From NCBI GenBank assembly GCA_034717495.1, contig JAYELL010000050.1:1-40317 (forward strand): a DNA stretch of 40,317 nt. The letters are read 5' to 3'. The DNA is from Chloroflexota bacterium. Its GTDB lineage: Bacteria > Chloroflexota > Anaerolineae > JAAEKA01. The stretch's first letter is position 1; the number at the start of each line of letters is the position of its first letter. A program made the translations under genes and the position numbers. Under the pieces are notes generated by a model. That model made no database searches and had not been told where the DNA came from. It saw only the letters and a list, made by a program, of their open reading frames with translations. Below, piece after piece: positions 11,153 through 35,838 of the stretch.

Positions 11153-11263
11153 CCTGGAGGGGTTTTCAACCTACAAACTATTACCATATCCAAACAGAGT
11201 TTGCAGTGAGCCTTCCGGCGCACTTGTTTCTCACGGAAGTGTGATCCTCAAGAGAGAAAATGA

Positions 11264-12172: not shown

Positions 12173-12195
12173 TCGGCAATGCAAGCACCAGAAAA

Positions 12196-13038: not shown

Positions 13039-13045
13039 CACCACG

Positions 13046-14506: not shown

Positions 14507-14537
14507 TTTGGGATTTCTGGCCTGTACCGAGGAGAGG

Positions 14538-14570
14538 ATGATGACCGAGCTAACTGGAATGAAATGGTGA
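14538..14570 (+). CDS. Short leader frame overlapping the next start (or frameshifted N-terminus)
   Basis: GAGGAGAGG (14529-14537) directly precedes ATG ATG, opening a 10-codon frame (MMTELTGMKW) that ends at TGA 14568-14570. The stop overlaps the ATG at 14564 of the URO-D-like gene. Either translation terminates and re-initiates, or one base is missing and these residues belong to the N-terminus of the larger protein. Confidence 0.35.
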   Translation: MMTELTGMKW

Positions 14571-15748
14571 TAAATCCCCCCTTGACCGGCAAAGAAAGGG
14601 TAAAACTGGCTCTGGCTCACAAAGAGCCGGACAGAGTTCCCATTGGAGAAATGGGAATTGACTACCCGATCATCGAGCAGGTGTTGGGACGTGAAACGTA
14701 CTATCGTGCCCAGGGTAAAGAGCGCCGGGCAATCTGGGAAGGGCGGCGCGACGAAGTGGTGCGCAGCCAGAAAGAGGATCTGGTAGCTCTGGTGCAAGCT
14801 CTTGACTGGGATATTGTCCCGGTCTGGTTGACGTACAGCGACCGTGTAGATTACCGTCCCCGACGGTTTCTGGCTGAGGATAAACTCAAATGGCAAGACG
14901 CTGACGGCAATATCTGGCAGGCCCCGGACCAGACAGGCGATGCTCTGTGCATCGACTCACACAGAATCACTCCAGCCATTTTGGATGAGATGCATCGCAC
15001 CCCACCAGCAGTTGACCAGTCTCAGTTGGAACTGGTCAACTACGTCGTTCAGGAATTGGGTGAGACTCACTTCATTATCGGGCGCGGCTGGCATGCTCCC
15101 TCGACCTGGACCGACGGCTCATTTCCTATCCCGGGCGAGGGCTTGTCTATTCCGATTGACACGTTCCTGATGATGATGTATGACGACCCTGATGCAGTGC
15201 ACGCGATTTTGGCAGCGTATACCAGGCGGGCGATTGAATATGGCAAAATCCTTATTGCGGCAGGGGTTGACGCCGTGCAAATCAACGTCGATTACTGCAT
15301 CAACACTGGCCCCTGGCTGTCACCCTCTCAGTTTGAAACATTTATCCTGCCCTATATGCAGCAACAGGTGGATGCCTTCAAGCAGGAAGGGGTATACGTT
15401 CTCAAACATAGCGACGGCAATACCTGGGCACTGATTGATATGATGGTGGGTACCGGGATAGACGCCCTGCATGGAATTCAACCGAGCGTCGGCATGGATA
15501 TCAAGCGTCTAAAAGAGAAGATTGGTGACCGGGTGGCTCTCTTCGGTGCCATTGAAGCTGAAACGCTTATCAACGGCATGCCTGAGGATGTTGAGCGCGC
15601 AGTTGAGTATTGCCTGAAGCATGGAGCGCCGGGGGGGGGATTTGCTCTCACCACAAGCAATTCGGTGCAGGTCGGAACCAAATATGAGAATTATATGACC
15701 ATGCTCCGTGTAGCCGGCGAAAAAGGGACGTACCCCATTTCTTTGTGA
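14564..15748 (+). CDS. URO-D-superfamily (methyltransferase-like) protein 2
   Basis: A 394-residue TIM-barrel protein beginning PLTGKERVKLALAHKEPDRVPIGEMG, a classic URO-D superfamily opening. The zinc-site region reads KHSDGN (281-286), so the methyltransferase His-X-Cys is His-X-Asp; the late Cys is replaced as well (LTTSNSVQVGTKYENYM). It follows the MttB-like gene and could be its partner, but the altered ligands make this uncertain. The assigned ATG overlaps the stop of a 10-codon frame with a strong ribosome binding site (14538-14570), pointing to translational coupling or to a frameshift at the true N-terminus. Confidence 0.8.
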   Translation: MVINPPLTGKERVKLALAHKEPDRVPIGEMGIDYPIIEQVLGRETYYRAQGKERRAIWEGRRDEVVRSQKEDLVALVQALDWDIVPVWLTYSDRVDYRPRRFLAEDKLKWQDADGNIWQAPDQTGDALCIDSHRITPAILDEMHRTPPAVDQSQLELVNYVVQELGETHFIIGRGWHAPSTWTDGSFPIPGEGLSIPIDTFLMMMYDDPDAVHAILAAYTRRAIEYGKILIAAGVDAVQINVDYCINTGPWLSPSQFETFILPYMQQQVDAFKQEGVYVLKHSDGNTWALIDMMVGTGIDALHGIQPSVGMDIKRLKEKIGDRVALFGAIEAETLINGMPEDVERAVEYCLKHGAPGGGFALTTSNSVQVGTKYENYMTMLRVAGEKGTYPISL

Positions 15749-20439: not shown

Positions 20440-20461
20440 AAGGGAATCTGGTTAATTGAGG

Positions 20462-21535
20462 ATGATTCAAATCGATACACGCATCGAACGCTACAAAAAG
20501 TGGCTGGAGCGGGAATCTGTGGAGCGGCCAATGATAGGGCTTGCCTGGGAACCGGACATAAGTCCGCTCCCGGAAATGCTGGAGCAGTTCGGTATGGGAA
20601 AACCAGTATTTCCGGACCAAATTCAGCCGGAAGTGATATTGGATTGGGTTGAACACTGCTACGGCGAGGATGCCCGGCTGCAAAGCGATGTAATTCAGGG
20701 ATTTGCCCCCGCTTTTGGCGTTCCCTGGGTTGAGGCGATTGCCGGGTGCCCGGTGGTGGCTCAACCAGGATCACTGTGGGCCGAGCCTTGCCTGGATAGC
20801 TACGCGGATCGCCAGCGAATCACCTTTGATCCCGACAATCCCTGGCTGCAGAGGCTGATTGAGTTCACCAGAGTGCTGGTTGATTTATCTGATGGGCGCT
20901 TTCCAGTCACGCTTCCGCAGACGCGAGGTCCACTGGACACGCTGGCAGCCATGCGCGGGCCTGAGCGAATGGGGCTTGATCTTATCGACTGCCCCGATGA
21001 AGTTGCCGCTATTCTCGATGAACTTACCGACCTCTGGATAGGCATTTGCGAAGCGGTCAGGCCGTGGATTCCACCGTTTCATGGCGGCTATTGCAGCCGG
21101 ATGAAAATGTTTGCACCTGGCTACGCCGTCACACCGCAGAACGACATTTCTTCCATCGTCTCGGCCAGAATGTACAGGGAGTTTGCTTTGCCCTGCGACA
21201 GGCGAATCACGAGTCGTTTTCCTTACCACTCTTTTCATACGCACGACACAGAGTACCACCAGATAGAAAACTTGCTCGAGTTGGAAGCGCTTACGGTTAT
21301 CCAGATCTTTCTTCAGCCAGATAGCGGCGGTCCACCTTTTGAGAGGATGTTACCCATAATAGAGCAAGCGCTTGAGCGTAAACCGGTGCTTCTGGGCGCT
21401 CAGAACATTGAAACAGCCGAACGCTGTCTTGAATCATTGCCCTGCACTGGATTGTTCCTGATGCTTGAAACCGAACCTCTGGAACCGATTCCCGAAAGCC
21501 ACAGGCGGTGGCTGCTGGAGCACTGTCTTATGTAA
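20462..21535 (+). CDS. URO-D-superfamily protein 3
   Basis: About 357 residues. The N-terminus (IERYKKWLERESVERPMIGLAWEPD) and later blocks (QTRGPLDTLAAMRGPERMGLDLIDCPDEVAAILDEL) fit the divergent URO-D-like group seen near ABC importers. The region of the zinc site reads FHTHDTEYHQIENLLE, with neither His-X-Cys nor a clean His-X-Asp-Gly, so it differs from the other three copies. ATG 20462 was preferred to TTG 20456; the ribosome binding site is weak for both. The TAA stop lies within the first copy of the 21-bp repeat starting at 21528, so the gene's last codons are part of the repeat. Confidence 0.72.
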   Translation: MIQIDTRIERYKKWLERESVERPMIGLAWEPDISPLPEMLEQFGMGKPVFPDQIQPEVILDWVEHCYGEDARLQSDVIQGFAPAFGVPWVEAIAGCPVVAQPGSLWAEPCLDSYADRQRITFDPDNPWLQRLIEFTRVLVDLSDGRFPVTLPQTRGPLDTLAAMRGPERMGLDLIDCPDEVAAILDELTDLWIGICEAVRPWIPPFHGGYCSRMKMFAPGYAVTPQNDISSIVSARMYREFALPCDRRITSRFPYHSFHTHDTEYHQIENLLELEALTVIQIFLQPDSGGPPFERMLPIIEQALERKPVLLGAQNIETAERCLESLPCTGLFLMLETEPLEPIPESHRRWLLEHCLM

Positions 21536-21736
21536 CTGGAGTTACGCAGGTAACAATGTGCCCGGAAGACGGCGACCTTGCGACACGGCGACCTTGCGAC
21601 GCGGGGACACGGCGACACGGCGACGCGGGGACACGGGGACACGGCGACGCGGGGACACGGCGACACGGCGACGCGGCGACCGAGGACCACGGACGGTAGA
21701 ACTGCGTAACATGAGTTATGTAACTGGAGTTACGCA
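21528..21736. repeat. Composite intergenic repeat bounded by perfect 21-bp direct repeats
   Basis: A 21-bp sequence beginning TTATGTAACTGG and ending GTTACGCA occurs identically at 21528-21548 and 21716-21736. Each copy has the inner palindrome GTAAC-TGGA-GTTAC. Between them lies a degenerate array of GACACGG, CGACGCGGG and CGACCTTG units (about 21567-21690). TGCGTAAC (21703-21710) and GTTACGCA (21729-21736) form a further inverted repeat. The left copy overlaps the end of the URO-D-like gene. It fills most of the 317-bp gap up to 21852, and no gene is seen in it. Confidence 0.8.
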
Positions 21737-21852
21737 ATTGGAGTGCTTTCCTGCCGACCACCGACCACTGAAAGCCGACCATTGACCGCCGACCGCTGAC
21801 TGATATCCGTCATTCTTTCTTCAAATACTTGAACATACAAGGAGAACTACTT

Positions 21853-22755
21853 ATGAAGATCGGTTGTGCCGCACTCTATCCCATTACCCGCTACGGATTC
21901 CCTTACACGCTGGACAATTACCTGAAAGCTGTGGCCGAAATGCACTCGGCCGGTTTCGAGTACTGCGAGCTGGAGATCAACGTCGATAACGACCTTGATG
22001 AGTATATCGAGCGAACCGGCGAGGTCGAGCGTGTTCTGGCCGACAATCAAATGACCGTCTCGGCGATCATAGGTGTGGTAGATGGCGCCTTTTCTACTAA
22101 CCCCGTTATAGCGGACGCCTATCTACGCAAGTATGAACAGCTCTGTCGATTTGGCAGGGGCATCCACTGCGACATGATCTGCATTTGCGCCTATATGCCG
22201 CCCGAAATCGAAGGTGTTGCCGGAACCGAGCCCTATTCTGGCGCTCCCCCCATGCAGGTCAGAGAGCCGGAAGATTTCGACTGGGATCTGTTCTGGGACA
22301 ACGCTGTCCATCGTTTTGCCCAGATGGCGCGCATCAGTGCCAAATACGATCAAAAACTGATCATCGAGAATCGGGTGGGCGATTGGGTCAGCACAAGCGA
22401 TGGTGTATTGAAACTTATCGAAGACGCCGGAGAGCCGAATGCAGGCTGTCTGCTTGATGTAGCTCATACCAACGCAACCAAGGAGCATCTTAACCTGGTT
22501 ATTCCCAAACTCAAACATCGGCTGATGTATGTCCATCTTGCTGACAATGATGGCACACAGCCCTATCATCTGCCTGCCGGCCAGGGTACCATCGACTTTC
22601 CTTCTGTATTTGGAAGCCTTGAATCAATTGGCTATGACAGCTACGTCAATGTTGACTATGGTGGCGTGCCGTCCGACCAGATTCTGGAAGAAGTGACAAA
22701 AGGTCGAGCTTATTTTCAGGAATGCCTTGAAACTGCTAGCCAGGACCATGGGTAG
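21853..22755 (+). CDS. Xylose-isomerase-like TIM-barrel protein (sugar isomerase/epimerase) 1
   Basis: A 300-residue AP-endonuclease-2/xylose-isomerase-fold protein. Putative metal and catalytic positions are Glu172 (LIIENRV), Asp202 and His205 (LLDVAHT), His228 (VHLADND) and, at the place where the family usually has Glu, Asp268 (VNVDYGG). Members isomerise or epimerise keto-sugars, or dehydrate inositols. It is clearly a paralogue of the gene at 23712 (shared CAYMPPEI, HYHLP-like and PAGQGTIDFP segments), with the AEC permease between them. The start at 21853 follows AAGGAGAA. Confidence 0.82.
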   Translation: MKIGCAALYPITRYGFPYTLDNYLKAVAEMHSAGFEYCELEINVDNDLDEYIERTGEVERVLADNQMTVSAIIGVVDGAFSTNPVIADAYLRKYEQLCRFGRGIHCDMICICAYMPPEIEGVAGTEPYSGAPPMQVREPEDFDWDLFWDNAVHRFAQMARISAKYDQKLIIENRVGDWVSTSDGVLKLIEDAGEPNAGCLLDVAHTNATKEHLNLVIPKLKHRLMYVHLADNDGTQPYHLPAGQGTIDFPSVFGSLESIGYDSYVNVDYGGVPSDQILEEVTKGRAYFQECLETASQDHG

Positions 22756-22778
22756 GAAAACAAATCAACACTGAATCT

Positions 22779-23684
22779 ATTCCGGAACTGATCGCCGCCT
22801 TCACCACCGTATTCTTCATATTTGGCCTGGGATTCGCCATCCAACGGTTGCGGCCATTGAGCGAACAGACACTGGCCCAACTTTCCTGGTTGGTCGTTGA
22901 GGTCTTGCTGCCGTTTTATCTCTTCTTCATTATGGCAACCAGCGTCACATTTGAGTCGCTGAGCGCGGCGCCGGTGCTTATCGCTATGGGCCTGGTGGTT
23001 ACACTGACCAGCTACGTGTGGGCAACGCTGGCGCAAAAGCCGGCCCGGGTTGCGCCGGAGCAGCGATCGGCTTTCCGCTTTTCAATCATGATCGCCAATA
23101 CAGCTTTCCTGGGCATTCCTATTTGCGCGGCCCTGTTTGGCCCTGTGGGCGCTGTTTACGCTGTATTGTACGATTTTGGCACGACCATAGTGATACTGAC
23201 GCTTGGGATTTGGGTGCTTAACGGGGGGCATCTCGATAATTGGCGACCCCTGTTTTTTAATCCTTTGATTTGGGGCGTCGTGGCCGGATTGGGGTGGGCT
23301 TTCAGTGGTTGGCCGTTCCCGGAGTGGCTGGCCGGCCCCTTCTCGACCCTGGGCGATGCCACATTGCCGTTGGCGTTGTTGGTAGGCGGCGCCCAGATCG
23401 GCAATATCCAACCAGCAGGATTGAGGCAACTGCCATTGGCGGGATTGATTACAACTCGACTGATTGTTGTTCCCATAACTGTTTTCGCCGCTCTGGCGAT
23501 CCTGGGCTGGCATGGGCTATTTGCGCAAGTGACCATTCTCCAGGCAGCTATGCCGGTGGGGATTACAACTGTAATCCTAGCCAAAAACTACGGGGCTGAT
23601 GCCAAGTTTGCAGCATCGGCCATATTCTGGTCAACCTTGTTTGCTATTGTCAGTCTGCCCATAATCGTTATATTGCTAATTTGA
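22779..23684 (+). CDS. AEC-family (auxin efflux carrier-like) permease
   Basis: A membrane protein of about 300 residues with the AEC pattern: two similar halves, each with about five helices, conserved PFYLFFIMATS, RFSIMIANTAFLGIPICAALFG and the late ITVFAALAILG...LQAAMPVGITTVILAKNYGAD. Bacterial members move organic acids such as malate. The N-terminus is odd: the frame is open upstream of the first TTG (22848) and encodes a needed first helix (ELIAAFTTVFFIFGLGFAI), but no ATG, GTG or TTG precedes it. I tentatively use ATT 22779. CTG 22788 or a frameshift from ATG 22748 are alternatives. Confidence 0.8.
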   Translation: MPELIAAFTTVFFIFGLGFAIQRLRPLSEQTLAQLSWLVVEVLLPFYLFFIMATSVTFESLSAAPVLIAMGLVVTLTSYVWATLAQKPARVAPEQRSAFRFSIMIANTAFLGIPICAALFGPVGAVYAVLYDFGTTIVILTLGIWVLNGGHLDNWRPLFFNPLIWGVVAGLGWAFSGWPFPEWLAGPFSTLGDATLPLALLVGGAQIGNIQPAGLRQLPLAGLITTRLIVVPITVFAALAILGWHGLFAQVTILQAAMPVGITTVILAKNYGADAKFAASAIFWSTLFAIVSLPIIVILLI

Positions 23685-23711
23685 ACCATCAATAGTTCTA
23701 AGGAGAAAAAC

Positions 23712-24593
23712 ATGAACATTGCTTGCGGTTATACCATTCCCATTACCCTGTTTGGAATTCCCCCGTCACCTGCAGACCATCTCAAAGCGATGGAAATTGT
23801 AGGCCAGGCCGGCTTTGAGGCGATAGAGCTGGAGCTATATGATGAGTTGATCGAGCAGCATCGGCGTGATCTCGACCAGATGAAAGCCATCCTCTCAAAC
23901 TATGGGATGGTCGTTCCATCCGTCATGGCAGTCGAAGAAAAAATGTTCAGTGTTAACCCGGACATCAAGGCCAAGGCATTGCATGATTTCGCCGCGCTGA
24001 CCGATATGATCGCTGAATTGGGAGCACCGATTGTATCAATTTGCGGGTATATGCCGCCAGAGATCCGTCCCATGGGCACCGAGCTATATGTGGGCGGCCC
24101 GCCTACTGCTGTCAGCGTTGGCGACGATTTCTCCTGGGACGAGTTCTGGAGGAACGCGGTGGATGTGGTGACTCAATGCGCCGCCATCGCCAAGCGCAAG
24201 GGGTTGAGGCTCATTATCGAGACACGAGCCAATGACGTCTTCAGTTCGACGGATGCAATACTGAACCTGATAAAGGAGTCGGCAGCGGATAATGCGGGCG
24301 TGTTGTTCGACATCGCCCATGTTCATGCCGGCAAGGAATACCTGGCACTGGTTATCCCCAAATTAGGGGATCAAATCGCCTTGGTTCACTTTTCTGACAA
24401 TGACGGCTCCCAGGCTTACCACTATCCTCCAGGTCAAGGTATCATTGATTTTCCTGCTGTGGTTGGAAGCCTGAAACGCGTGGGGTTCGATGGAACGATT
24501 GTTGTCGACATTTCCGGCGTGGATAACATTGTTGAGGAAGCAGTCAAAGCCCGCGACTTTTTTCTATCGCTGATCAACGAAGTCCAGGCATAG
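23712..24593 (+). CDS. Xylose-isomerase-like TIM-barrel protein 2
   Basis: A 293-residue paralogue of the protein encoded at 21853. Corresponding residues are Glu170 (IIETRA), Asp200 and His203 (FDIAHVH), His226 (VHFSDND) and Asp266 (VVDISG), again with Asp where Glu is usual. The start at 23712 follows AAGGAGAAA at good spacing. Similar length and motifs imply related but not identical sugar substrates, or a hetero-oligomer. Confidence 0.82.
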   Translation: MNIACGYTIPITLFGIPPSPADHLKAMEIVGQAGFEAIELELYDELIEQHRRDLDQMKAILSNYGMVVPSVMAVEEKMFSVNPDIKAKALHDFAALTDMIAELGAPIVSICGYMPPEIRPMGTELYVGGPPTAVSVGDDFSWDEFWRNAVDVVTQCAAIAKRKGLRLIIETRANDVFSSTDAILNLIKESAADNAGVLFDIAHVHAGKEYLALVIPKLGDQIALVHFSDNDGSQAYHYPPGQGIIDFPAVVGSLKRVGFDGTIVVDISGVDNIVEEAVKARDFFLSLINEVQA

Positions 24594-24603
24594 GGGACAA
24601 ACG

Positions 24604-25428
24604 ATGAGACTAAGCCTATCATCCTTCATCTATTACAACTATCCTCTCTCCGAGGCAATCCGGCGCACGGCTGCTGCCGGATTTGACGGAATCGACATCT
24701 GGGGAGGAAGGCCCCACGCCTACCGGAAAGACCTGGGCGACAAAGAGATTGCCGACCTGCGCCAAACCCTTCAATCCGAGGGACTGGCTGTTGCCTCCTT
24801 TATCCCAGCTCAATTTCGCTATCCGACCAGCCTGTGCAGCCCGATAGAGAAGATTCGCCAGGACAGCGTATCCTACATCCAGGATAGCATCGAAACGGCG
24901 GTAGCCCTCGGCGCCCCGGTCGTAAGCGTGTGCCCCGGTCATACCCTTTTCGGACAAAGTACCGAGGATGGCATTGAGCGCTTGAGCGAAAGCCTGTGCG
25001 CTATCGCCGAGTACGCCACCAGCTATGAACTGCTTATTGCCATTGAACCGGCGGACAGATATGAAACGGATCTATTGCCTACCTGCGCAGCCACTCTGGA
25101 TCTGGTCAACAAGCTTGGATATGCGTACTTAGGCGTACTGCTCGACAATGGGCATGCCCATGTGGTGGGTGAGCCGGCGGCGGACGCAGTGCGCTTGCTG
25201 GGTGACAAACTGTTCCACGTGCACGTCGATGACAACGATGGCGAACGAGATCAGCACTTAGTGCCAGGAGATGGCAGTTTCGAATTTTCGCCGTTCATGG
25301 TGGCTCTGCGCCAGACAGGATATGATGGTTTTTTGGCTGCGGAACTGGGTTGGGACTATACCATAGATCCCGACCCAGCCGCCCGGCTTACCGTCGAGAG
25401 GATGAACGACATCCAAAGCCAGGGTTAA
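24604..25428 (+). CDS. Xylose-isomerase-like TIM-barrel protein 3 (canonical metal site)
   Basis: A 274-residue member of the same superfamily but of a different branch. The complete ligand set can be seen: Glu148 (IAIEPAD), Asp181 and His184 (LLDNGHAH), His207 (HVHVDDNDG) and Glu247 (LAAELGW). It should be a functional keto-sugar isomerase or 3-epimerase of the tagatose-epimerase type. It lies 10 bp behind the preceding gene with an AGGGGA site, so it is in the same operon. Confidence 0.85.
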   Translation: MRLSLSSFIYYNYPLSEAIRRTAAAGFDGIDIWGGRPHAYRKDLGDKEIADLRQTLQSEGLAVASFIPAQFRYPTSLCSPIEKIRQDSVSYIQDSIETAVALGAPVVSVCPGHTLFGQSTEDGIERLSESLCAIAEYATSYELLIAIEPADRYETDLLPTCAATLDLVNKLGYAYLGVLLDNGHAHVVGEPAADAVRLLGDKLFHVHVDDNDGERDQHLVPGDGSFEFSPFMVALRQTGYDGFLAAELGWDYTIDPDPAARLTVERMNDIQSQG

Positions 25429-25464
25429 CCCTCAGTTGTCGAACACTTTCTTAACGGGGTGCCG

Positions 25465-26658
25465 ATGATGGTTCTAAAAGCAGGTGATTACTTCGATCCG
25501 GAGGCATACCACCAACGAGTAGCGCATGCTCACCAGGCCTGGGACGAACTTCTCGCCGGGAAGCGATCTCATTTGGTGTTCATGAATCTTTGCGCTCCCT
25601 TCCTGTGCGATCTGTTTGGGGTTGAGCCTTTCGACTATTACACCAGCCTGGAAGTAATGGCCGACACCCAGTTGAAAGGAATTGCCTGGCGTCTCAAGAA
25701 TCTTGACGAAGATGAGATTCCACTGGCGATCTTCCTGGACCAGGCAACAGTTCACGAAGCTATCGCCTTCAATCTGCCCATTGAATATCAAAAAAGCTCT
25801 ACCCCTTGGGGCGGGCATCTCATCGATGAAATCGAGCAGGTTGACACGCTGCAAATGCCTGATCTGACCCGGCACAGGAATTTGCACGAGACGCGTCAGA
25901 AGCTTGAACTGCTACGCTCACTTGTGGACGGCTTGCCGGTTTTGACCAGCGTTCACCTGCATGCGCCGTTTACAATGGCTGCTCAACTCTTGAATGCCCA
26001 AGACCTGTTCCTGGCTTGTTTTGAGCAGCCTGAGCGTGTCCATAAGCTGCTGGAGAATTGTCTTCGCTTTTTCTTGCACTTTGAGCGAGTTAAATGGCAG
26101 TACGGCATCTCGCCCGACCCGCTGGATGAGTTTGTCTGCTGGCGAGAAGGTCAGCGTGGCCTGACCCGAGTCTGGACAAGCGACGATACGGCAACGATGA
26201 TGTCACCCCAGTTATATGAGGAGTTTGTCTTACCCTATAACCAAATCCTGTACAGCGATTTTGAATATGTTCATCTCCATATGGACGGCCGCTGGAATCA
26301 CTTGATCCCCCACGTGCAACGATTGCAACCTGATTACTGTGAAGTCGGGGGGGAGACGGATTGGCGTGCGGTTGTCGAGGCTCTGGGTCCCACCACGGTT
26401 TTACAGGGCGGCATTCTGGCCGAAATAGCGCGAGATGGTTCACCGGATGACTGCGCCCAAGCTGCTGCAACGGCACTCGATATTGCCGTGGGAAAAGCGG
26501 GCGTTGCCTTGACCATTGCCAACGAAGTTCATCCGGGCACACCGTTGAGAAACATGCAAAAAATCATCGAGACTGCCCGTGATTATCAACACAAGGCACT
26601 GAAAAATGCCTCCTGGCAAGGGCCAGAGGAACGCAAATGGCACGCATCGCGCAGTTAA
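25465..26658 (+). CDS. URO-D-superfamily protein 4
   Basis: About 397 residues. The TIM-barrel order of the URO-D family is visible (SVHLHAPFTMAAQLLNAQDLFLACFEQPERVHKLLENCL; WTSDDTATMMSPQLYEEFVLPYNQILY), and the metal-site region reads HLHMDG, again His-X-Asp instead of His-X-Cys. ATG 25465 was preferred to GTG 25459; ATG 25468 is possible. The last 22 nt overlap the start of the fusion gene at 26637. Function unassigned. Confidence 0.75.
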   Translation: MMVLKAGDYFDPEAYHQRVAHAHQAWDELLAGKRSHLVFMNLCAPFLCDLFGVEPFDYYTSLEVMADTQLKGIAWRLKNLDEDEIPLAIFLDQATVHEAIAFNLPIEYQKSSTPWGGHLIDEIEQVDTLQMPDLTRHRNLHETRQKLELLRSLVDGLPVLTSVHLHAPFTMAAQLLNAQDLFLACFEQPERVHKLLENCLRFFLHFERVKWQYGISPDPLDEFVCWREGQRGLTRVWTSDDTATMMSPQLYEEFVLPYNQILYSDFEYVHLHMDGRWNHLIPHVQRLQPDYCEVGGETDWRAVVEALGPTTVLQGGILAEIARDGSPDDCAQAAATALDIAVGKAGVALTIANEVHPGTPLRNMQKIIETARDYQHKALKNASWQGPEERKWHASRS

Positions 26659-28694
26659 TCGATATCCTACAAGGCAGCGGCATTGACGCTGGCGATGTAT
26701 TAGTTTTCGAGGCACCTGGGCTGACGCCATCCAACGTCGAGGGTGGGTTGGAGAACCTGGCCATTGCTCTGCAAGCGCTGGTCGGGCCCAGCGGAACCCT
26801 GGTAGTCCCCACCTGCACACCCGCCGAAGGCTACCCCAAACCCGTCTTCGATCCCCTGCAATCTCCGTCCGAAATGGGTCCATTCCCGGAGATGTTCAGG
26901 GCATTGCAGGGCGTCGTACGCAGCCACAGCCCGACGCACTCTGTTTCCGCCCGCGGTCCCTCGGCCGACAACTTGATTGCCGGTCATCGAACAGCGGCAG
27001 GGAGACCAACCCCCTGGGGAGGCGGCCCTTTTGGCTATGGCAGCCCCTGGGACTTGCTTTACGAATGCAACGCCTGGTGGGTTTTGGTTGAGACGGACGA
27101 AATGTCGCCCGATTCCTGGACACAGACGCCTTTCACGGCCTATGTTCAAGCCCTTTTCGCCGACCGGCAACGTGGTCTCACAAAACACACTGCTTTCCCA
27201 CGCTTCAATCCCGCCATGCTGGGCCGAAAATTGCAACAGCTTGGCTGTCTGCATCGAGCAGTTTGGGGGCCGAATACCGTAATGGCTTTCCAAACGCGCC
27301 CGGCCATCGATACTGCTCTCGCTACTTTGCAGGATTCTCCCTCTTCCCTTGAACCCGCCCCGGAGGTCAGCCAGTGGCTGGCGACGGTCCACTACCTGAA
27401 GCAGCATGGCTACCTGCAAGCGGGGATAGCTAAAAAAAAGATCACGCCGCCTGTGCCTTGCCTGCGTTGGGAGGGAAAACAACTCACTGGTGTCTACCGA
27501 GATCTGTATGTTCGAGTGGTTGTCCTGGCGCATGGCAGCGATAAGATCGCTTTGGTCCTGTGTGATCTACTTGGCATCTCGCGGGAACTCGTTCAGCGCA
27601 TCAGAACAGAAATTCAGGCCAGGATCGACTTTCCTGCCGGGGCGATTCAAATCGCCTGCACCCATTCACACTCCACTCCCGATACCGTTGGCTCCGGCTT
27701 CGAGGACCCCGTCTACCTCGACTCCATGGTCGATACCATTGTCGACGCCGTATGCAAAGCAGCTATCAATACTCAACCGGCTCGCCTGGGTTGGGATCGC
27801 ATCCCTATCCGGGGTTTGGCTCGCAACCGTCGAAAAAAAATGACCGATGGCACGGTTTTCACGACTCGCTACGGCGTGCCCTCAACCTGGCGGGTCGCCC
27901 CTGAAATCATTGTCGGCGAGGGGCCCACAGACCCAGACCTGACAGCGGTCAGGATTGAGGATCTGAGCGGCGAGGTCCTGGCCGCCGTCTCCAACTTTGC
28001 CTGCCATCCGAGTGTGGCTCTGATGAGTCCCAATATCTCCGGAGATTTCTTTGGGGAAGCTATGGCAATTCTGGAAGAAATCATGGGTGATCCCAGCGTA
28101 GTTCTATGCACTAACGGCGCTGCTGCCGATGTCGATCCCACAGCGGAGATGCCCTGCTGGGGACCCCGTGATGACCGGATGGCGCGTCGCCTGGGACGCA
28201 TTTTTTCCGCCCAGGTTCTGGAATGTCTGGAACGAATCGAGGTACAGGAGATCACCCCGGTGGGCTTCGCCCAGGAGCTGGTTGACCTGCCGGTGCGGCC
28301 TGATTGGATTCAACTGTTCGAGAGCGGACAAGAACGCATGCAGCAGGAGTTCTCGAAAGGATGGCAGCTCAGTTCCGTTACGAAACAGATTTTACGAGAG
28401 CGAATCATCCACACTGAAGTGCAGGCTCTACGCCTGAACGACTTGATTTTGTTCGGTTTCCCTGGTGAGGTTTTTGCCGAAACCGGTCTGCAGCTCAAAG
28501 CGAAGAGCCAAAACTGTTCTGTCGCCGTTGTAGAATTAGCAAACGACGATATTGGATATATTCCCACCGCACAAGCTTTCCTTGAGGGCGGCTACGAGGT
28601 GGGCCAACACCTCTGGGGTCGGATCACGCCGGAAGCTACCGATTTGTTAGTAGCTGCTGGTGGACGTGTGATTGAAAGGCTGACGGATGATTGA
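26637..28694 (+). CDS. Fusion of AAC(3)-like acyltransferase and neutral-ceramidase-like domains
   Basis: This 685-residue protein joins two domains. Residues 1-250 resemble the aminoglycoside 3-N-acetyltransferase/YokD fold, with the family motif RSHSPTHSV (95-103), but the usual later His/Glu pair is not evident. Residues 261-680 match neutral/alkaline ceramidase: AGIAKKKITPP (262-272), THSHS (342-346), ACHPS (455-459), FPGEVF (608-613) and GYIPT (640-644), so all four zinc ligands have counterparts (His343 or 345, His457, Glu611, Tyr641). The catalytic Ser of true ceramidases is replaced: the motif reads ADVDP (497-501). No signal peptide is seen, so it is probably cytoplasmic. Perhaps it acts on N-acyl groups of an amino sugar. 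It overlaps the upstream gene by 22 nt. Confidence 0.82.
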   Translation: MARIAQLIDILQGSGIDAGDVLVFEAPGLTPSNVEGGLENLAIALQALVGPSGTLVVPTCTPAEGYPKPVFDPLQSPSEMGPFPEMFRALQGVVRSHSPTHSVSARGPSADNLIAGHRTAAGRPTPWGGGPFGYGSPWDLLYECNAWWVLVETDEMSPDSWTQTPFTAYVQALFADRQRGLTKHTAFPRFNPAMLGRKLQQLGCLHRAVWGPNTVMAFQTRPAIDTALATLQDSPSSLEPAPEVSQWLATVHYLKQHGYLQAGIAKKKITPPVPCLRWEGKQLTGVYRDLYVRVVVLAHGSDKIALVLCDLLGISRELVQRIRTEIQARIDFPAGAIQIACTHSHSTPDTVGSGFEDPVYLDSMVDTIVDAVCKAAINTQPARLGWDRIPIRGLARNRRKKMTDGTVFTTRYGVPSTWRVAPEIIVGEGPTDPDLTAVRIEDLSGEVLAAVSNFACHPSVALMSPNISGDFFGEAMAILEEIMGDPSVVLCTNGAAADVDPTAEMPCWGPRDDRMARRLGRIFSAQVLECLERIEVQEITPVGFAQELVDLPVRPDWIQLFESGQERMQQEFSKGWQLSSVTKQILRERIIHTEVQALRLNDLILFGFPGEVFAETGLQLKAKSQNCSVAVVELANDDIGYIPTAQAFLEGGYEVGQHLWGRITPEATDLLVAAGGRVIERLTDD

Positions 28695-28771: not shown

Positions 28772-29761
28772 ATGGCTAAAAAATTGCGTGGCGGATTGAT
28801 TGGATGTGGCAGTATTGGAAAGGTGTTTGCCGAGGCGGTCGGTGAGATAGAGGGCATGGACATGGTAGCTTTTTGCTCCCGCACCAAAGCCAAGGCCGAG
28901 CGGTACAACGAAAGCTATCATGGGGAATACAGCACCACTAACGTGCAGGATATTTTTGACGACCCCTCGATCGACGCTGTTTATATCAGCACCTGGCACG
29001 ATAGTCATGCTGACCTGTGCATTCGGGCTGCGAAAGCGGGGAAGCATATTCTGGTCGAGAAACCGCTGGCGCTGACTGTGGAGGAGTGTCAGGCCGTCGG
29101 CAGAGCGGTTGAGGAGAGTGGTATCAGGCTGATGGTCGCCTTCAAAATGCGCTATTACGATATGATTCTCAAGGCCAGGGAACTGATTCCAAACCCGGTG
29201 ATGGTCACGATGCAAATGATGGATAATCGCTGGCCCGACGACTTCTGGGCCAGCGATCCCATTACCGGTGGGGGCAACGTTTTGAGCCAGGGCTGTCATT
29301 CATGCGACATCCTGCGGTTCGTGGCCGGTCGCGATCCCATAGAAGTTTACGCCGCCGGAGACAATTATTACACCTCTACGGGGGTGGTCGACAATCTGTG
29401 CGCTACCTTCCGCTTCGAAGGGGGTATAGCCGGTAATTGGGTCCAGGGCGACGCCAATTGCCCACCGTTGACCAGCAAATTTTACCTGCAACTCTTTGCG
29501 GAAAACAAATCTGTTACCCTCAGCGACCGGCTTTGCACATTGACCTATAATGAGGCGGGCCAAGAAACTCAGGTGTTCAAAGGAACCGAAAGCGGTTTTG
29601 TCGAGGAGAACCGGGCCTTCATCGATTGTCTGATCAATGGCACCCGACCGCCGATCGATCATATCGATGGCTTAATGGCGACGTTGATGGTCTTGCAAGC
29701 ATTCAACAGTCTCAAGAGTGGCCGACCTGAACCGATTGCCTCGGTGCTGCGAGATCTGTAA
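28772..29761 (+). CDS. Gfo/Idh/MocA-family oxidoreductase 1
   Basis: A 329-residue NAD(P)-dependent dehydrogenase. The Rossmann motif GLIGCGSIG (8-16) and the catalytic-lysine motif VEKP (near 94-97) are intact; QGCHSCDIL carries the expected active-site His. Family members oxidise or reduce pyranoses, inositols or amino sugars. ATG 28772 was chosen because of the GGAGGAA site; the open frame starts earlier at 28691, but that stretch lacks protein-like sequence. It precedes the two deacetylase-like genes and is likely part of the same pathway. Confidence 0.9.
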   Translation: MAKKLRGGLIGCGSIGKVFAEAVGEIEGMDMVAFCSRTKAKAERYNESYHGEYSTTNVQDIFDDPSIDAVYISTWHDSHADLCIRAAKAGKHILVEKPLALTVEECQAVGRAVEESGIRLMVAFKMRYYDMILKARELIPNPVMVTMQMMDNRWPDDFWASDPITGGGNVLSQGCHSCDILRFVAGRDPIEVYAAGDNYYTSTGVVDNLCATFRFEGGIAGNWVQGDANCPPLTSKFYLQLFAENKSVTLSDRLCTLTYNEAGQETQVFKGTESGFVEENRAFIDCLINGTRPPIDHIDGLMATLMVLQAFNSLKSGRPEPIASVLRDL

Positions 29762-29772: not shown

Positions 29773-30810
29773 ATGATGTCTCAGCCAGATCATTCTGTGC
29801 AAATCGCACAATGGAAAGATGATAAGCGTTTCGCGTACTCCATCACCTACGATGAAGGTCTGGTGGAAACACTGGGGTTCGCCAGACGAATCCACCACCG
29901 CTATGGAATCCCCGGCCATATCAATGCCTTTCCTGAGATGCTGGGTAAACTGGTGGGTGATACCTCAGCCGGATTCTTGCAGAGCCTCTGGAATCTGCAG
30001 AAGTATGCTGACCCGGAACATCTGCAATTCATGATGAGTGAGGGTTGGTCGGTCGGTTGCCAGATCTCCTCGTCCGGGGATGGCAACCAGGCCCCCTCTG
30101 CCGCTTCTTTGCTTGAGATGCGTTTATCGCTGGAGAAGGCCATCGGGTGTTCCGTTCGGTCCCTGGCCTTCTCCGATTACACCTATTGCGAAACAGTCCA
30201 GGATGTGGCTCAAGAAGCGGGTTTCCACTGGCTTTTTGCCCTCTACGATGACTTGAACAGCGCCGGCGAGGACGCCAGCATCATCAAACGGTCGCCGTTG
30301 TACCATCAAAGCCCCGTTCCGCTTCAACTTGGGAACGACCCCTACCGCCTGCTGGCCCTGGGGCAGGATCAAGGCGCCTGGGTTGTTGATGTGGTCCGGC
30401 GGGTCGACCTGCATCCTCTGGATGCCAGCAAAGATTGCACGCTATCTGAACTGGAAGCTCGTTTCAAAGCTGTTCACCGGATAGGCAAAGACAGGGTATG
30501 GACCGCTCTGCCTGAGACAATAGCCGGCTATCGCGCCCTGCGCCTGTCTACCCAAATAAAACACTGCACGTGTACACCTGACCAGATCGCCTATACGCTC
30601 GCGGTGACCGGTCCCGGTGATTCTTTGACCGAGGCTGAACTCACGTTTGTGGCCAGGCTACCTGCTACCTGGCTCTCCCCGAGAGCGGTTGTTGGCGAGG
30701 ATACAGTCAATTTGCAGCCCGGCCCCGAAGCGGGAACCTGGCTGTTCACCCATCGGGTCAGGGAGGGTCTTCAAGTCAGATTGGCCAACAACAACGGGAT
30801 GTCAGTATGA
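29773..30810 (+). CDS. Polysaccharide-deacetylase-like protein with degenerate active site
   Basis: A 345-residue NodB-fold protein, a tandem paralogue of the next gene. Motif 1 is kept as ITYDEG (24-29), but where the next protein has the zinc-binding HSMTH, this one reads CQISSSG (96-102), so both metal His are lost. The third motif is changed too (LAFSDYTYCE against FHLPGANFSF). It has no signal peptide, so both would act in the cytoplasm. It is probably not an active deacetylase; a regulatory or structural subunit of the next protein is a natural guess. Its end overlaps the next start by ATGA. Confidence 0.82.
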   Translation: MMSQPDHSVQIAQWKDDKRFAYSITYDEGLVETLGFARRIHHRYGIPGHINAFPEMLGKLVGDTSAGFLQSLWNLQKYADPEHLQFMMSEGWSVGCQISSSGDGNQAPSAASLLEMRLSLEKAIGCSVRSLAFSDYTYCETVQDVAQEAGFHWLFALYDDLNSAGEDASIIKRSPLYHQSPVPLQLGNDPYRLLALGQDQGAWVVDVVRRVDLHPLDASKDCTLSELEARFKAVHRIGKDRVWTALPETIAGYRALRLSTQIKHCTCTPDQIAYTLAVTGPGDSLTEAELTFVARLPATWLSPRAVVGEDTVNLQPGPEAGTWLFTHRVREGLQVRLANNNGMSV

Positions 30811-31826
30811 GTGTTCAAGTATGCCGTTGGAAACAGGGCAACGCTTTTGCTTACAGCATTACCTATGACGAAGGATTTGTGGAATTGATCGAGCACGCCC
30901 TGCCGGTTCACCAGAGATATGGGGTTCCCGGTCACCTGGTGATGGTCGCCGGCCAACTGGGGCAGTTGAGAGAGATGCCTTCCAGCACCTACCACGGTCT
31001 GCGCTGCCATTTGAGTCCTCCACAAATCCGCGATTTCATGCACGAAGGCTGGTCGGTGGGGGATCACAGTATGACCCACGGCGATCTCAATGTCGACACC
31101 TACACTGAAGTTGTCGGATCCAAGCTGCTTCTCGAAGCGGCAATTGGGGAACCTGTGAATACCTTCCATCTGCCTGGTGCCAACTTCAGTTTCGCTCCGG
31201 CAGCGAGATATTTGGAAGAGGCCGGCTTTCTGGCGGTGTTCTTTGCCAACGACGGGGTCAACAGCTATGACCCCGATCTCTTTGCTTTGAGTCGCACCCT
31301 GCTCTACGTGGTCGAGGGGGAACCCTTCTGCCCGCTTTACAGCCCGTTTCCCCGGGTGTACGATCCATATTACAGACTGCACGAAGCCCTCGACAGCGGA
31401 GGCTGGATTGTAGATGTCACGCACTCGGTGGAACCTGTTCCCCTGGCCTTGTGGAAGGATGGTACCCCTGACATCCTGGATGCCCGCTTCGATTGCCTGC
31501 GCCGGGTAGGGAGCGGGCGCGAATGGGCGGCCGAGCCCGAAGAAATCATAGATTACATCCTCGTTCGCCGGGCCGTTTCTATAATGACCCTGACGGCGGA
31601 GAGGGGTCGCTTGAGCTTCCGGGTTGAGCTGGGCGATGTACCCAATCAGGTCAAGTATCGAGAGATCAGCGTGACGGCCCAATTGAGCCCGATTCCGTCC
31701 GATTGGCCGACGATATTGATCGATGGGAAGGCTGAGGCGACGCTGGATAGCTTTTCAGGCGAGCGTGTGACCTTTACCTGGCCGGTCAAAAACAATCAAG
31801 TAGTCGACCTGCACTGGCAGGCCTAG
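30807..31826 (+). CDS. Polysaccharide-deacetylase-like protein with intact metal motif
   Basis: A 339-residue NodB-fold protein. Motif 1 is ITYDEG (18-23) with the catalytic Asp, and motif 2 is HSMTH (87-91), the zinc-binding H-S-X-X-H of active CE4 deacetylases; FHLPGANFSFA follows as a motif-3 counterpart. It should hydrolyse N- or O-acyl groups from a sugar. No signal peptide or membrane segment is seen, which is unusual for enzymes acting on cell-wall glycans and suits a small imported substrate. The ATGA overlap couples its translation to the degenerate paralogue. Confidence 0.85.
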   Translation: MSVQVCRWKQGNAFAYSITYDEGFVELIEHALPVHQRYGVPGHLVMVAGQLGQLREMPSSTYHGLRCHLSPPQIRDFMHEGWSVGDHSMTHGDLNVDTYTEVVGSKLLLEAAIGEPVNTFHLPGANFSFAPAARYLEEAGFLAVFFANDGVNSYDPDLFALSRTLLYVVEGEPFCPLYSPFPRVYDPYYRLHEALDSGGWIVDVTHSVEPVPLALWKDGTPDILDARFDCLRRVGSGREWAAEPEEIIDYILVRRAVSIMTLTAERGRLSFRVELGDVPNQVKYREISVTAQLSPIPSDWPTILIDGKAEATLDSFSGERVTFTWPVKNNQVVDLHWQA

Positions 31827-31854: not shown

Positions 31855-32679
31855 ATGCCGGAGACTGATTGCCACAGAGCGAATACCCGGTGGCAGCTGC
31901 CTTGCTACCTGGCCCCTGCGATTGATATGCACGCCCATCCACCCTATGATCGCTGCCAAACGGAGCCAATGCTGGAGGCTGCTCGCCGGGTGGGGGTAGA
32001 ACGCTTGATCCTGTGCTCCATCGGCCATAGCGATATGATTCCCTATCCTCCGGTCGGGGAGGTCAGGCAGGGAAATGATGAGGTCTTTGATTTGATCGAC
32101 CGGCATCCAGGCTTTGTGTTCGGGTTGGTGTATGTCAATCCTAATCATCCGGAGACCCTGACTATTCTGGAAGAAGGTTTTCAGCATTCCGGTGTGGTTG
32201 GCATCAAGCTGTGGATTTCCTGCCGCGATGAGTATGGCCGGCTGGACCCTGTATATCCTGTGTTTGAATTTGCCGCCGCTCGCCGCGTACCTGTGCTGTG
32301 TCACTCATTTTATCGAACGGGAGGCAATCTACCCGGCGAGCTATCGCCCTCAGATATTTCCCATCTGGCCACCCGCTACCCGGCAGCGCGCCTGGTGATG
32401 GCTCATATGGGAGGGCAGTGGCTTCGGGGCGTGAGAGCAATCAAACCCTACCCGAACGTGTGGACCGACTTCTCCGGCGGCCGGGCTTACATGGGTAGCC
32501 TGGAGTTTGCCGTCAGGGAACTGGGAGCAGATCGGGTGGTGTATGGTTCCGACGCCTTTATTCGCGCTTTTGCCCCGATGCTGGCTAAGGTTGCTGCAGC
32601 CGAACTTGATTTGGCTGCGAAACGGCAGATCGTTTGGGATAATAGCGCTGCCCTATTCTTTAGCGGGAAATCGAAATGA
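31855..32679 (+). CDS. Amidohydrolase-2-family metal-dependent hydrolase
   Basis: A 274-residue TIM-barrel amidohydrolase with a full set of likely metal ligands: IDMHAHP (His26, His28), LCHSF (His150), MAHMGG (His184) and YGSDAF (Asp233), plus Lys118 in GIKLW. Such enzymes hydrolyse lactones or amides, or decarboxylate aromatic or sugar acids; a sugar-lactone role would fit the cluster. ATG 31855 follows GGGAGAAGGA. The gene ends in an ATGA overlap with the next gene, whose N-terminal domain is a metal-less relative. Confidence 0.86.
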   Translation: MPETDCHRANTRWQLPCYLAPAIDMHAHPPYDRCQTEPMLEAARRVGVERLILCSIGHSDMIPYPPVGEVRQGNDEVFDLIDRHPGFVFGLVYVNPNHPETLTILEEGFQHSGVVGIKLWISCRDEYGRLDPVYPVFEFAAARRVPVLCHSFYRTGGNLPGELSPSDISHLATRYPAARLVMAHMGGQWLRGVRAIKPYPNVWTDFSGGRAYMGSLEFAVRELGADRVVYGSDAFIRAFAPMLAKVAAAELDLAAKRQIVWDNSAALFFSGKSK

Positions 32680-34802
32680 TCATTGATTTTTGTGCCTACC
32701 TTGGAAACTGGCCACTCTATCAACTGCCTGCCGGCGATGCTCCAGCGCTGATCAGCGTAATGGACCGCTGCGGGATTGGGGCTGCCTTTGTCTCGCTGGC
32801 TGAAGGCCCGTTCCTGCTCAATCCAGGCGAGGCCAATGAGCGACTGGTGAACATGGTCGCGGCGCATCGCGATCGTTTGTGGCCGGTGGGAACGGCCGAT
32901 CTGAATGCCCCGTTCTGGCGTGAGGATGTGGTGGCCGGCATCGAGCGTCAGAAGCTGGCGGGCTTTCGTGCGTACCCCACCTATCATCGCTATGCCCTTG
33001 ACTCGGCGGAGGCAGTGGCCCTGGCGGCGACCCTGGCCGAATACCAACGTCCCTTGTTTATTGCCGCCTTCATCGATGAAGAGCGCTTTCAGCATCCGGC
33101 GATTCGCGTTCCCCCTGTTCGCGTCCCTGAATTGGCAGGCCTGATTCGCCGTGTCCCCCAGACAACGCTTGTGCTGAATAACCTGTCTGTTGAAGAAGCC
33201 GCCATGCTTTTTGACGCCCCGGAGCTATCACTTGAAAATGTATTCATCGATGTCAACGCGATGGACAAGCCCTTCAATGGATTGGCTCAATTGGTTGAGG
33301 ATTACGGCGCCGAGCGACTGGTTTTTGGTAGCCAGGTTCCATTTCTGTACCCGGAGGCAGCGCTGGCCTTAGTGCAGGAATCTGGTATTTCGCAGGAAGG
33401 TGTTGAAGCGATCCTGGCACAAAATTACCACACAAGTGCAACTATCAACAGTCTGTTGTCCAGATCCGGAAAGGAAAAAAGCATGTTTTCAGCAACTACG
33501 AAATTAACACTTGACAAGTCTGTCGAACCTGGTTTGCGAGCCGGTGAGTTTATCCCCGGGATAACCCAAACCATCAGCAAACGGCCGGCCGCATTTGCCC
33601 CCGGCTATTTCCCGGATTTTATCGATTACGGTAAAGGGTCTCATGTGTGGGATGTGGACGGGAACGAATACATAGACTATGTAATGGCCTGTGGCCCGGT
33701 TACTTTGGGATATTGCTATCCAGCCGTCGATCAGGCGATTCGGGAACAACTGGCCCGGGGAATCATCTTCACGCGGCTGACGGCTCTGGAAGGAGAGGTG
33801 GCCGAGATCCTCTCCGACGTTGTGCCCTGCGCCGAGATGACCCGTTTCTTCAAAGGTGGCGTCGAGGCTAATTCGGCCGCGCTGCGCCTGGCGCGAGCCT
33901 TCACCAACCGGGAGAAGGTGGTATCGTGCGGCTATAGAGGCTGGCATGACCAGTGGGCAGTGACCCACTCCCCGCAGGGCATTCCTGCCTGCCTGGCCAA
34001 TTTGATCACTGAGTTCGAGTATAACAACCTGGACTCCTTGGAGGCAGCACTCAGCGCTAATCCCAAACAGGTTGCCGCCGTTTTTATCGATCCGGTATCC
34101 GGCGAACGGCCCAAAGAAGGTTTTCTGGCTGGGGTCGAAGAGTTAGCCCATAAGCACGGCGCCTTACTAATCTTCGATGAAATCGTAACGGGATTCCGGC
34201 TCGCTGTGGGCGGTGCCCAGGCCTATTACAATGTAGTGCCAGATATAGCGGTTTTTGCCAAAGGAATTGCCAACGGTATGCCGCTTTCGGCGGTCAGCGG
34301 CCGGCGCGACGTCATGAAGATGGCTACCGAAGTGTTCATGACCCTGACCTATGGCGATGAGGCGCTCTCACTGGCGGCGGCGCGGGCTACGCTGAATGTG
34401 CAACGCCAGGAGGACGTTTCGGGCCACATCTGGGATGTAGGCACGGCCCTGGTGAATGGCGTGAAACAAGCTCTTGTCGAAACAGGTGCGCCATTCACCT
34501 TCAGCGGAATCGAGGCGATGCCGGCCTTTGTCGCCGCCGCTGACTTTCGCGGCAGGCCCCTGGATGAGGCAACCCAGCAAGCCGCATGGGTCTATCTCCT
34601 GAGCGAGTTGGCCCGCCGCGGGATCATCTGGCGCAGACACAGTCTGATATTGCCCAGCTACTCCCACAGCCATGAAGACGTTAGCGACACCGTAGAAGCG
34701 TGTCATGAAGTGTTCACCAACCTGGCCCAGTTGCTCGAGTCCGGGACACTTCATGACGCAATCCAGTTGACCGAATTGCCGAGCGGGTTCAAGCGGGTCT
34801 AA
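32676..34802 (+). CDS. Fusion of metal-less amidohydrolase-like domain and class III (GSA-like) aminotransferase
   Basis: This 708-residue protein has an amidohydrolase-2-like domain (1-265) fused to a glutamate-1-semialdehyde-aminomutase-like PLP domain (270-708). The PLP domain looks active: VWDVDGNEYIDYV (324-336), IFDEIVTGFR with Asp501, and FAKGIANGMPL with the PLP Lys529. In the first domain all metal ligands seen in the neighbouring enzyme are changed: His-X-His becomes Cys6-X-Tyr8, His150 becomes Ala131, His184 becomes Asn169 and Asp233 becomes Gln220. Met270 has a good internal ribosome binding site (GGAAAGGAAAAAAGC, 33468-33482), so a free aminotransferase may also be made. It could aminate or isomerise a keto- or aldehyde sugar handed on by its neighbours. 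Confidence 0.85.
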   Translation: MIIDFCAYLGNWPLYQLPAGDAPALISVMDRCGIGAAFVSLAEGPFLLNPGEANERLVNMVAAHRDRLWPVGTADLNAPFWREDVVAGIERQKLAGFRAYPTYHRYALDSAEAVALAATLAEYQRPLFIAAFIDEERFQHPAIRVPPVRVPELAGLIRRVPQTTLVLNNLSVEEAAMLFDAPELSLENVFIDVNAMDKPFNGLAQLVEDYGAERLVFGSQVPFLYPEAALALVQESGISQEGVEAILAQNYHTSATINSLLSRSGKEKSMFSATTKLTLDKSVEPGLRAGEFIPGITQTISKRPAAFAPGYFPDFIDYGKGSHVWDVDGNEYIDYVMACGPVTLGYCYPAVDQAIREQLARGIIFTRLTALEGEVAEILSDVVPCAEMTRFFKGGVEANSAALRLARAFTNREKVVSCGYRGWHDQWAVTHSPQGIPACLANLITEFEYNNLDSLEAALSANPKQVAAVFIDPVSGERPKEGFLAGVEELAHKHGALLIFDEIVTGFRLAVGGAQAYYNVVPDIAVFAKGIANGMPLSAVSGRRDVMKMATEVFMTLTYGDEALSLAAARATLNVQRQEDVSGHIWDVGTALVNGVKQALVETGAPFTFSGIEAMPAFVAAADFRGRPLDEATQQAAWVYLLSELARRGIIWRRHSLILPSYSHSHEDVSDTVEACHEVFTNLAQLLESGTLHDAIQLTELPSGFKRV
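33468..33485 (+). promoter_or_regulatory. Internal ribosome binding site and start within the fusion gene
   Basis: GGAAAGGAAA precedes an in-frame ATG at 33483 exactly at the domain boundary. It suggests that the aminotransferase was once, or still is, translated separately. Confidence 0.5.
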
Positions 34803-34848: not shown

Positions 34849-35838
34849 ATGGATGTTATCAGATGGGGAATTATTGGTTGTGGAGACGTGGCGGAACAAA
34901 AGAGTGGCCCGCCGTTGTACCAGACTCCTGGTTCGGAACTGGTTGCGGTTATGCGTCGTGATCAGGAAAAAGCGGCGGACTTTGCCCAACGTCACGGGGT
35001 CGGACGCTGGTACACCGACGTAACATCTTTATTGGCCGACCCTGACGTCAACGCAGTTTATATCGCGTCCCCACACTATTTGCACCCGGCCCACGCCTCA
35101 CAGTCAGCCCTGGCCGGCAAAATTGTGTTGTGTGAAAAACCGATGGGGACCAACCGGGAGGATGCGCAAAAAATTGTAGATGTGTGCCGAAGCTCTGGTG
35201 TGCCGTTAACCGTGGCCTATTATCGTCGTTTCTGGCCGGTTGTGCAGAAGATGAAGGCGTTGCTAGCTGAGGATGCCATTGGTCGGGTAGTGTCTGCCCG
35301 GGTGCAACTGGCCGACTATTATGACGGCGACCCGGAGCGTCTCTGGCTCACCTCTTTGAGAGAAGCGGGTGGCGGCGCGTTGGCAAATGCCGGCAGCCAT
35401 TGGGTCGATTTGATCCGCTACCTGTTGGGAGAGGTTATGGAGGTGATGGCCTATTGCTCGTCAACCGCGGGCTTTGAAGTAGAAGACACTGCTGCCGCCA
35501 TCATGCGCACCGAGACTGAGGCGTTCGTGTCATTCTCTTCGACCTGGCAAGAACGTGTCGGGGTCAACGACTTTGACATCTGTGGCACCGACGGACGCAT
35601 ATTGGCCAGTCCCCTGTCTGACGGACGATTGAAGCTGGTTCGCTTTGGCAAAGAGCCAGAAGTATTTGAGCTGGCGCGCTCCGGTCCGGCCCACCGGGAA
35701 TTGATCCAAGAGCTGATACCACGTCTCCAGACCGGCCAGAGTTCACCGGTTCCAGGTGAAGAAGCGGTGGCAGTCTGGCGGATTATTGAAGCGACTCACC
35801 GCTCCAGCACAGAAGGTTGTCGGATCAGAATAGTTTAG
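34849..35838 (+). CDS. Gfo/Idh/MocA-family oxidoreductase 2
   Basis: A 329-residue NAD(P)-dependent oxidoreductase with an intact Rossmann motif GIIGCGDVA (7-15), CEKPMGT containing the catalytic Lys, and NAGSHWVDLIRY containing the active-site His. The ATG at 34849 follows TGGAGGA at good spacing. It likely oxidises a hydroxyl of the imported sugar or its derivative. The following gene is a diverged relative without a clear nucleotide-binding motif. Confidence 0.9.
   Translation: MDVIRWGIIGCGDVAEQKSGPPLYQTPGSELVAVMRRDQEKAADFAQRHGVGRWYTDVTSLLADPDVNAVYIASPHYLHPAHASQSALAGKIVLCEKPMGTNREDAQKIVDVCRSSGVPLTVAYYRRFWPVVQKMKALLAEDAIGRVVSARVQLADYYDGDPERLWLTSLREAGGGALANAGSHWVDLIRYLLGEVMEVMAYCSSTAGFEVEDTAAAIMRTETEAFVSFSSTWQERVGVNDFDICGTDGRILASPLSDGRLKLVRFGKEPEVFELARSGPAHRELIQELIPRLQTGQSSPVPGEEAVAVWRIIEATHRSSTEGCRIRIV

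Follow-up and report, generated by a model that had tools for sequence, protein, structure and literature searches.

A metal-ligand-less amidohydrolase-2 domain encoded beside an intact paralogue: a candidate non-catalytic subunit in Chloroflexota

What does an amidohydrolase domain do once its metal ligands have been replaced, when it is encoded directly after an intact paralogue and, in this genome, in one frame with an aminotransferase? The locus that raises this question lies in a 40,317-nt stretch of Chloroflexota DNA, which was analysed as a whole and is called the window here. The features needed to follow the argument are given below; L037 and L038 are the two nearest relatives with which the locus was compared.

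28772-29761 (+): Gfo/Idh/MocA oxidoreductase of the same operon (Pfam), with a counterpart in L037
29773-30810 (+): protein that resembles the next gene in its opening sequence, with no Pfam match of its own and a counterpart in L037
30807-31826 (+): polysaccharide deacetylase-like protein (PF01522), with a counterpart in L037
31855-32679 (+): active-type amidohydrolase-2 partner, DxHxH, H, H, D intact (PF04909, 94.7 bits; ligand alignment)
32676-33482 (+): ligand-less amidohydrolase-2 domain, the candidate pseudo subunit, N-terminal half of the 708-residue frame (PF04909; five ligands replaced; AF2 model; fold matches)
33465-33482 (+): junction, open in this genome, with a stop in the orthologue L037
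33468-33475 (+): Shine-Dalgarno-like sequence before an internal ATG
33483-34802 (+): class III (GSA-like) PLP aminotransferase, C-terminal half, Lys529 kept (PF00202, 160 bits; PDB neighbours; separate gene in L037 and L038)
34849-35838 (+): Gfo/Idh/MocA oxidoreductase (Pfam)

The 708-residue frame and its ligand-less barrel

The initial annotation had described a single 708-residue frame in which an amidohydrolase-2-like domain precedes a GSA-like PLP domain with a retained Lys529, joined to the preceding amidohydrolase gene by an ATGA overlap and carrying an internal ribosome-binding site at the junction, and all of these points were borne out. The frame at 32676-34802 (+) starts with ATG and has no stop inside; its N-terminal half matches PF04909 (Amidohydro_2) at 39.6 bits when scored alone (Pfam cut-off 26.4), and its C-terminal half matches PF00202 (Aminotran_3) at 160.3 bits (cut-off 30.5), with the PLP lysine at position 529. 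The ATGA overlap joins the frame to 31855-32679, and the Shine-Dalgarno-like GGAAAGGA lies at 33468-33475 (+), ahead of the internal ATG at 33483. The aminotransferase half is assigned to class III by its profile and its PLP lysine. The nearest solved chains in the PDB are glutamate-1-semialdehyde aminomutases, and this half shares its fold family and PLP lysine with the class III aminotransferases that resemble them; it differs from these aminomutases in scoring far below all equivalog cut-offs (327.9 versus 486 bits for NF004856, 242.8 versus 527.3 bits for hemL), and the HemL equivalog score is not reached.

Structure prediction and comparison with amidohydrolases, as proposed in the initial annotation, placed the N-domain where its profile did. 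An AF2 model built on 47 aligned relatives is a confident TIM barrel (pLDDT 95, pTM 0.93) that matches amidohydrolase-2 structures at Z 21-23, the best solved matches being 3cjp (Z 23.3), dihydroxybenzoate decarboxylases (23), ACMSD (22.5) and AibH1H2 (21.6). With a profile score above the cut-off and a predicted TIM barrel, the domain belongs to the amidohydrolase-2 (PF04909) fold family. The metal-dependent set of this family (ACMSD type; HxH, His, His, Asp) is present in 31855-32679 and absent from the N-domain, where the five positions hold Cys6, Tyr8, Ala130, Asn169 and Gln220 in place of His, His, His, His and Asp. The annotated replacement of all five ligands thus stands, with the third position corrected from Ala131 to Ala130 (both are alanine). 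The domain still has its first-strand Asp (D4) but has lost the His at position 6, the His of beta5 and the Asp of beta8. The orthologues are ligand-poor as well, with one His (H6) kept in L037 and none in L038.

Metal ligands elsewhere in the N-domain, the finding under which the initial annotation would have given up its assignment, were looked for in the fold model and the 47-row alignment. Both place the same barrel positions, no compensating His set was found in either, and displacement of the ligands was rejected. An HxY after beta4 and an ExR..H after beta5, from which metal binding cannot be inferred, are conserved in part of the family.

The aminotransferase fusion

Close relatives of the locus, the only kind that the method detects, were sought in a scan of ~85,000 genomes. 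The nearest one found, the Anaerolineales MAG L037, has the gene order of the window: Gfo/Idh, the matches to 29773-30810 and 30807-31826, the intact amidohydrolase, the ligand-less amidohydrolase and the aminotransferase. Its last two genes share a frame but are separate, divided by a TAA that falls in the stretch matching 33465-33482. The two genes are separate in L038 too, with a gap of ~54 bases and in different frames. The search for the same two-domain architecture, which the initial annotation had proposed, found no relative with the ligand-less barrel fused to an aminotransferase among the close relatives that the scan detects. Within the retrieved stretches, a class III aminotransferase adjoins an amidohydrolase pair at only 4 of ~60 pair loci (window, L037, L038 and L151). 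We rejected a conserved fusion because the two nearest relatives keep separate genes, and for the same reason we attribute the 708-residue frame to the loss of a stop codon in this genome or its assembly. Judged from these sequences, the fusion is either a local event (stop-codon loss) or an error in the sequence and does not define the system, and the retained internal start and ribosome-binding site suggest that separate production of the aminotransferase is still possible.

The fusion may be nothing more than a mistake in base calling or assembly, the genes being really separate; we give this possibility a little less than even weight, and it is compatible with the two-subunit reading set out below. 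Relatives have separate genes, the L037 stop lies exactly within the junction stretch, the assembly is a 120-contig draft and one substitution would be enough; however, both flanks are in one frame, in L037 too, so that a real single-base loss of the stop is equally simple. We consider it unlikely that the frame encodes a genuine two-domain enzyme, in which the metal-less barrel would supply the aminotransferase with substrate or dock it onto the intact amidohydrolase. The open frame would fit such an enzyme, as would the position of the pseudo gene between the other two in both the active-pseudo-aminotransferase order (window, L037, L038) and the aminotransferase-pseudo-active order (L151), and its close spacing or overlap with the aminotransferase gene in the window, L037 and L151. 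The separate genes of both nearest relatives argue against it, as do the few pair loci with a class III aminotransferase, the good ribosome-binding site kept at the internal start and the lack of a fused relative among the close relatives scanned.

At L151 3237-5978 (-), the order is reversed to aminotransferase, ligand-less member and intact member, and the aminotransferase stop overlaps the pseudo start. The pseudo gene thus lies between the aminotransferase and active genes in both arrangements (two independent ones are known), a gene order suggestive of a link. Docking of pairs to aminotransferases as a general rule was rejected, given the 4 loci. As a substrate-binding or docking module for the aminotransferase, the pseudo subunit is a weak, though possible, candidate.

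Tandem pairs of intact and ligand-less members

Relatives of the N-domain were searched in 396 genomes of the class, most surveyed genomes being drafts. All PF04909 matches in nine Anaerolineae genomes were taken into a census (nearly all could be retrieved), further pairs were added, and the five ligand positions of each domain were read with a joint profile. Every one of the 34 tandem same-strand clusters in Anaerolineae combined one ligand-less member (0-2 of 5 ligands) with at least one intact member, as did 28/28 tandem clusters of the nine-genome census, proportions that are not population estimates since the census genomes were picked for holding matches. Ligand counts were bimodal, 0-1 versus 5. 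The intact member scored 5/5 in 33 of the 34 clusters; in the remaining one, L230, the alignment failed at the first strand, which does contain AHGHL. An intact and a ligand-less member were likewise paired in 21/21 tandem clusters retrieved from Planctomycetota and in 5/7 from Bacillota, which, like the pairs outside the census, were found through the pseudo profile, so that these frequencies are no population estimates either. Together with the window, 59 further tandem active/pseudo clusters were thus found in three phyla.

Two Bacillota tandem pairs, L326 1039-2491 and L327 1314-2864, have all or nearly all ligands in both members and are possibly outgroups that still show the ancestral state. 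A 249-genome sample of the phylum of the alphaproteobacterial record gave only 4 matches at the same threshold, and the two of these that were inspected are single genes with four of five ligands. Pseudo genes with no partner in the retrieved stretch were seen in L156, L297, L307 and L312, of which several lie at a contig end or close to one. The comparison of singletons with tandem members (p=0.003) is supporting only, the ligand columns being partly misaligned in divergent low-scoring singletons. The window's own genome holds a second active/ligand-less pair (L165 3845-5304, contig C64), beside ABC permease genes and a UroD-like gene.

Both gene orders occur within pairs. In addition, five pairs are fused in one frame with the pseudo half first (L210 1190-2917, L230 1233-2927, L234 1228-3036, L293 2202-3860 and L294 2260-3861), and such pseudo-active fusions occur in Chloroflexota and Planctomycetota. 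An AF2 model of the natural fusion L234 gave two barrels whose docking is not confident (pTM 0.55), the pseudo half having only three aligned rows. Two-domain alignments A4 and A5 were excluded from modelling, as MAFFT had aligned rows with the pseudo domain only to the wrong half.

A maximum-likelihood tree of 84 domains placed the pseudo members in few groups, with 3 label changes compared with 26.6 after shuffling, and the pseudo and intact partner clades largely mirror each other. The distance matrices of the partners are correlated (r=0.69; 0/5000 permutations reach this value, with a maximum of 0.30), and 23 of 34 pairs have a nearest neighbour common to both partners. In sister comparisons, dN/dS was ~0.13-0.37 for pseudo and ~0.13-0.31 for intact members; synonymous sites are saturated between the window and L037. 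Pseudo members have conserved residues of their own (Gly10 in 31/31, Pro101 in 30/31, Pro222 in 28/31), a PxxHx[YWF] motif following strand four in 22/34, and Arg98 where intact partners have Lys. Judged by these substitution rates, the ligand-less genes are under purifying selection.

The neighbourhoods of the pairs contain sugar-type ABC transporters, Gfo/Idh enzymes, a sugar kinase, an isomerase and an aldolase, and therefore the predicted substrate of the pair is likely a sugar or sugar-acid. Elsewhere in the window (7259-15748 and 20456-26658), genes for sugar ABC transporters, LarA and NagA are interspersed with several UroD-like genes of methyltransferase type and an MttB-like one, an unusual mix of methyl-transfer and sugar genes. 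One gene, 26637-28694 (+), combines aminoglycoside 3-N-acetyltransferase-like (PF02522) and neutral ceramidase-like (PF04734) parts, and its counterpart in L037, at 8102-10141 (-), is of equal size and similar sequence. A Val-Gly-repeat-rich frame at 331-810 (+), opposite the repetitive 3´ end of the other-strand gene 483-2096, is probably not a gene.

A proposed two-subunit enzyme and its known counterparts

We propose that the N-domain is probably one of two subunits of an amidohydrolase-2 enzyme, the non-catalytic one, with the product of the intact upstream gene as its partner. This heteromer reading draws on fold, ligand loss, pairing, co-diversification, purifying selection and natural fusions. 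The initial annotation had raised a complex between a pseudo-hydrolase and the active amidohydrolase of the preceding gene; the association of the two genes was strengthened by recurrent pairing in 60 clusters of three phyla, by co-diversification, by the five fusions and by purifying selection. The physical complex, the division of labour and the substrate are inferred. The chemistry would fall to the intact partner 31855-32679, as the sole bearer of a metal centre; the reaction may be a hydrolysis or a step of the lactonase or decarboxylase type, within an operon for a sugar or sugar-acid. For the ligand-less subunit we envisage either a structural part, in which it completes or stabilises the quaternary structure, or a second pocket that takes up a ligand or selects the substrate. 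In this genome, no stop stands between the ligand-less subunit and the class III aminotransferase, which gives the 708-residue frame.

Two further explanations concern the ligand-less gene itself. It might be a metal-independent amidohydrolase-superfamily enzyme in its own right, like LigI, and some characterised PF04909 enzymes work without a cofactor (PMC10811679, citing LigI). The pseudo members' own conserved motif and the purifying selection on them would agree with this explanation. We nevertheless hold it to be quite unlikely, since neither the catalytic histidines nor the barrel Asp are left, the replacements vary from clade to clade, and independent activity would leave the obligate pairing with an intact copy unexplained. 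A decaying duplicate without function might also have lost all catalytic residues and might evolve somewhat faster than its partner, as the pseudo members do; frames that stay intact in dozens of pairs from three phyla, the low dN/dS values, the pseudo-specific invariant residues and the mirrored trees make decay highly improbable.

A broader form of the two-subunit proposal is evenly poised in our judgement: obligate heteromers of a metal-bearing amidohydrolase and a metal-free, co-evolved paralogue would be widespread in Chloroflexota, Planctomycetota and some Bacillota, with the metal-free subunit holding its own ligand-sensing or specificity pocket and able to recruit enzymes such as an aminotransferase. 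The genomic pattern suggests that such two-part active/metal-free amidohydrolases are common but undescribed. The sugar operons of uncultured bacteria contain many amidohydrolase-2 genes, most of them without an assigned function. If one member of each pair is indeed metal-free, tests of single genes will fail, the pseudo members are wrongly annotated as metal-dependent hydrolases, and the pairs are dozens of natural replicates for studying what an enzyme gains from an inactive sister subunit.

Inactive paralogues that serve another enzyme are known from more distant systems. In trypanosomes, the AdoMetDC prozyme, a dead paralogue, heterodimerises with the enzyme and activates it (PMC6221367), an analogy only, from an unrelated eukaryotic family. 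The pseudo-dihydroorotase (pDHO) of the Pseudomonas aeruginosa ATCase complex is an inactive amidohydrolase-superfamily chain that is needed for ATCase activity (PMC7053772). It resembles the ligand-less subunit by analogy, as an inactive chain of this superfamily serving another enzyme, but its partner is a transcarbamoylase rather than an active amidohydrolase, and it belongs to the dihydroorotase branch rather than to amidohydrolase-2. Closer in fold, ACMSD and the dihydroxybenzoate decarboxylases match the N-domain at Z ~22-23; they differ in being homomers with a metal in every subunit and without a ligand-less paralogue. ACMSD needs Arg239 from the neighbouring subunit to complete its active site (PMC11650718), and dimers are therefore functional units in the amidohydrolase-2 family. 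A conserved Arg or Lys at the offset of ACMSD Arg239 was sought in the pseudo subunits and not found, and donation of an arginine in trans by the pseudo subunit was rejected.

Among open-access papers, where absence is not proof, the only paired active/inactive amidohydrolase-2 system found was AibH1H2, the 2-aminoisobutyric acid hydroxylase of Rhodococcus wratislaviensis (PDB 6M1W, 8FUL). Its two PF04909 subunits assemble into an alpha2-alpha'2 heterotetramer, in which one subunit is catalytic and the other is required without being catalytic (PMC7782822, PMC12141560). The differences are several. AibH1 keeps a mononuclear site (Asp24, His26, His201, Glu255, Asp328) that binds Zn or Mn, whereas the ligand-less subunit lacks such a site; the other AibH subunit, AibH2, is an oxygenase with a dinuclear Mn/Fe centre and DxH-type ligands that works with a Rieske ferredoxin, whereas the partner here is of the mononuclear HxH/H/H/D type. 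The AibH1H2 subunits are also longer, at ~375 residues versus ~265 here. As to the Rieske ferredoxin and reductase of the AibH1H2 operon, neither was seen among the Pfam-scanned neighbours, which cover part of the window's frames. What the two systems share is a pair of adjacent genes for paralogous PF04909 barrels and a fold to which the N-domain model matches at Z 21.6.
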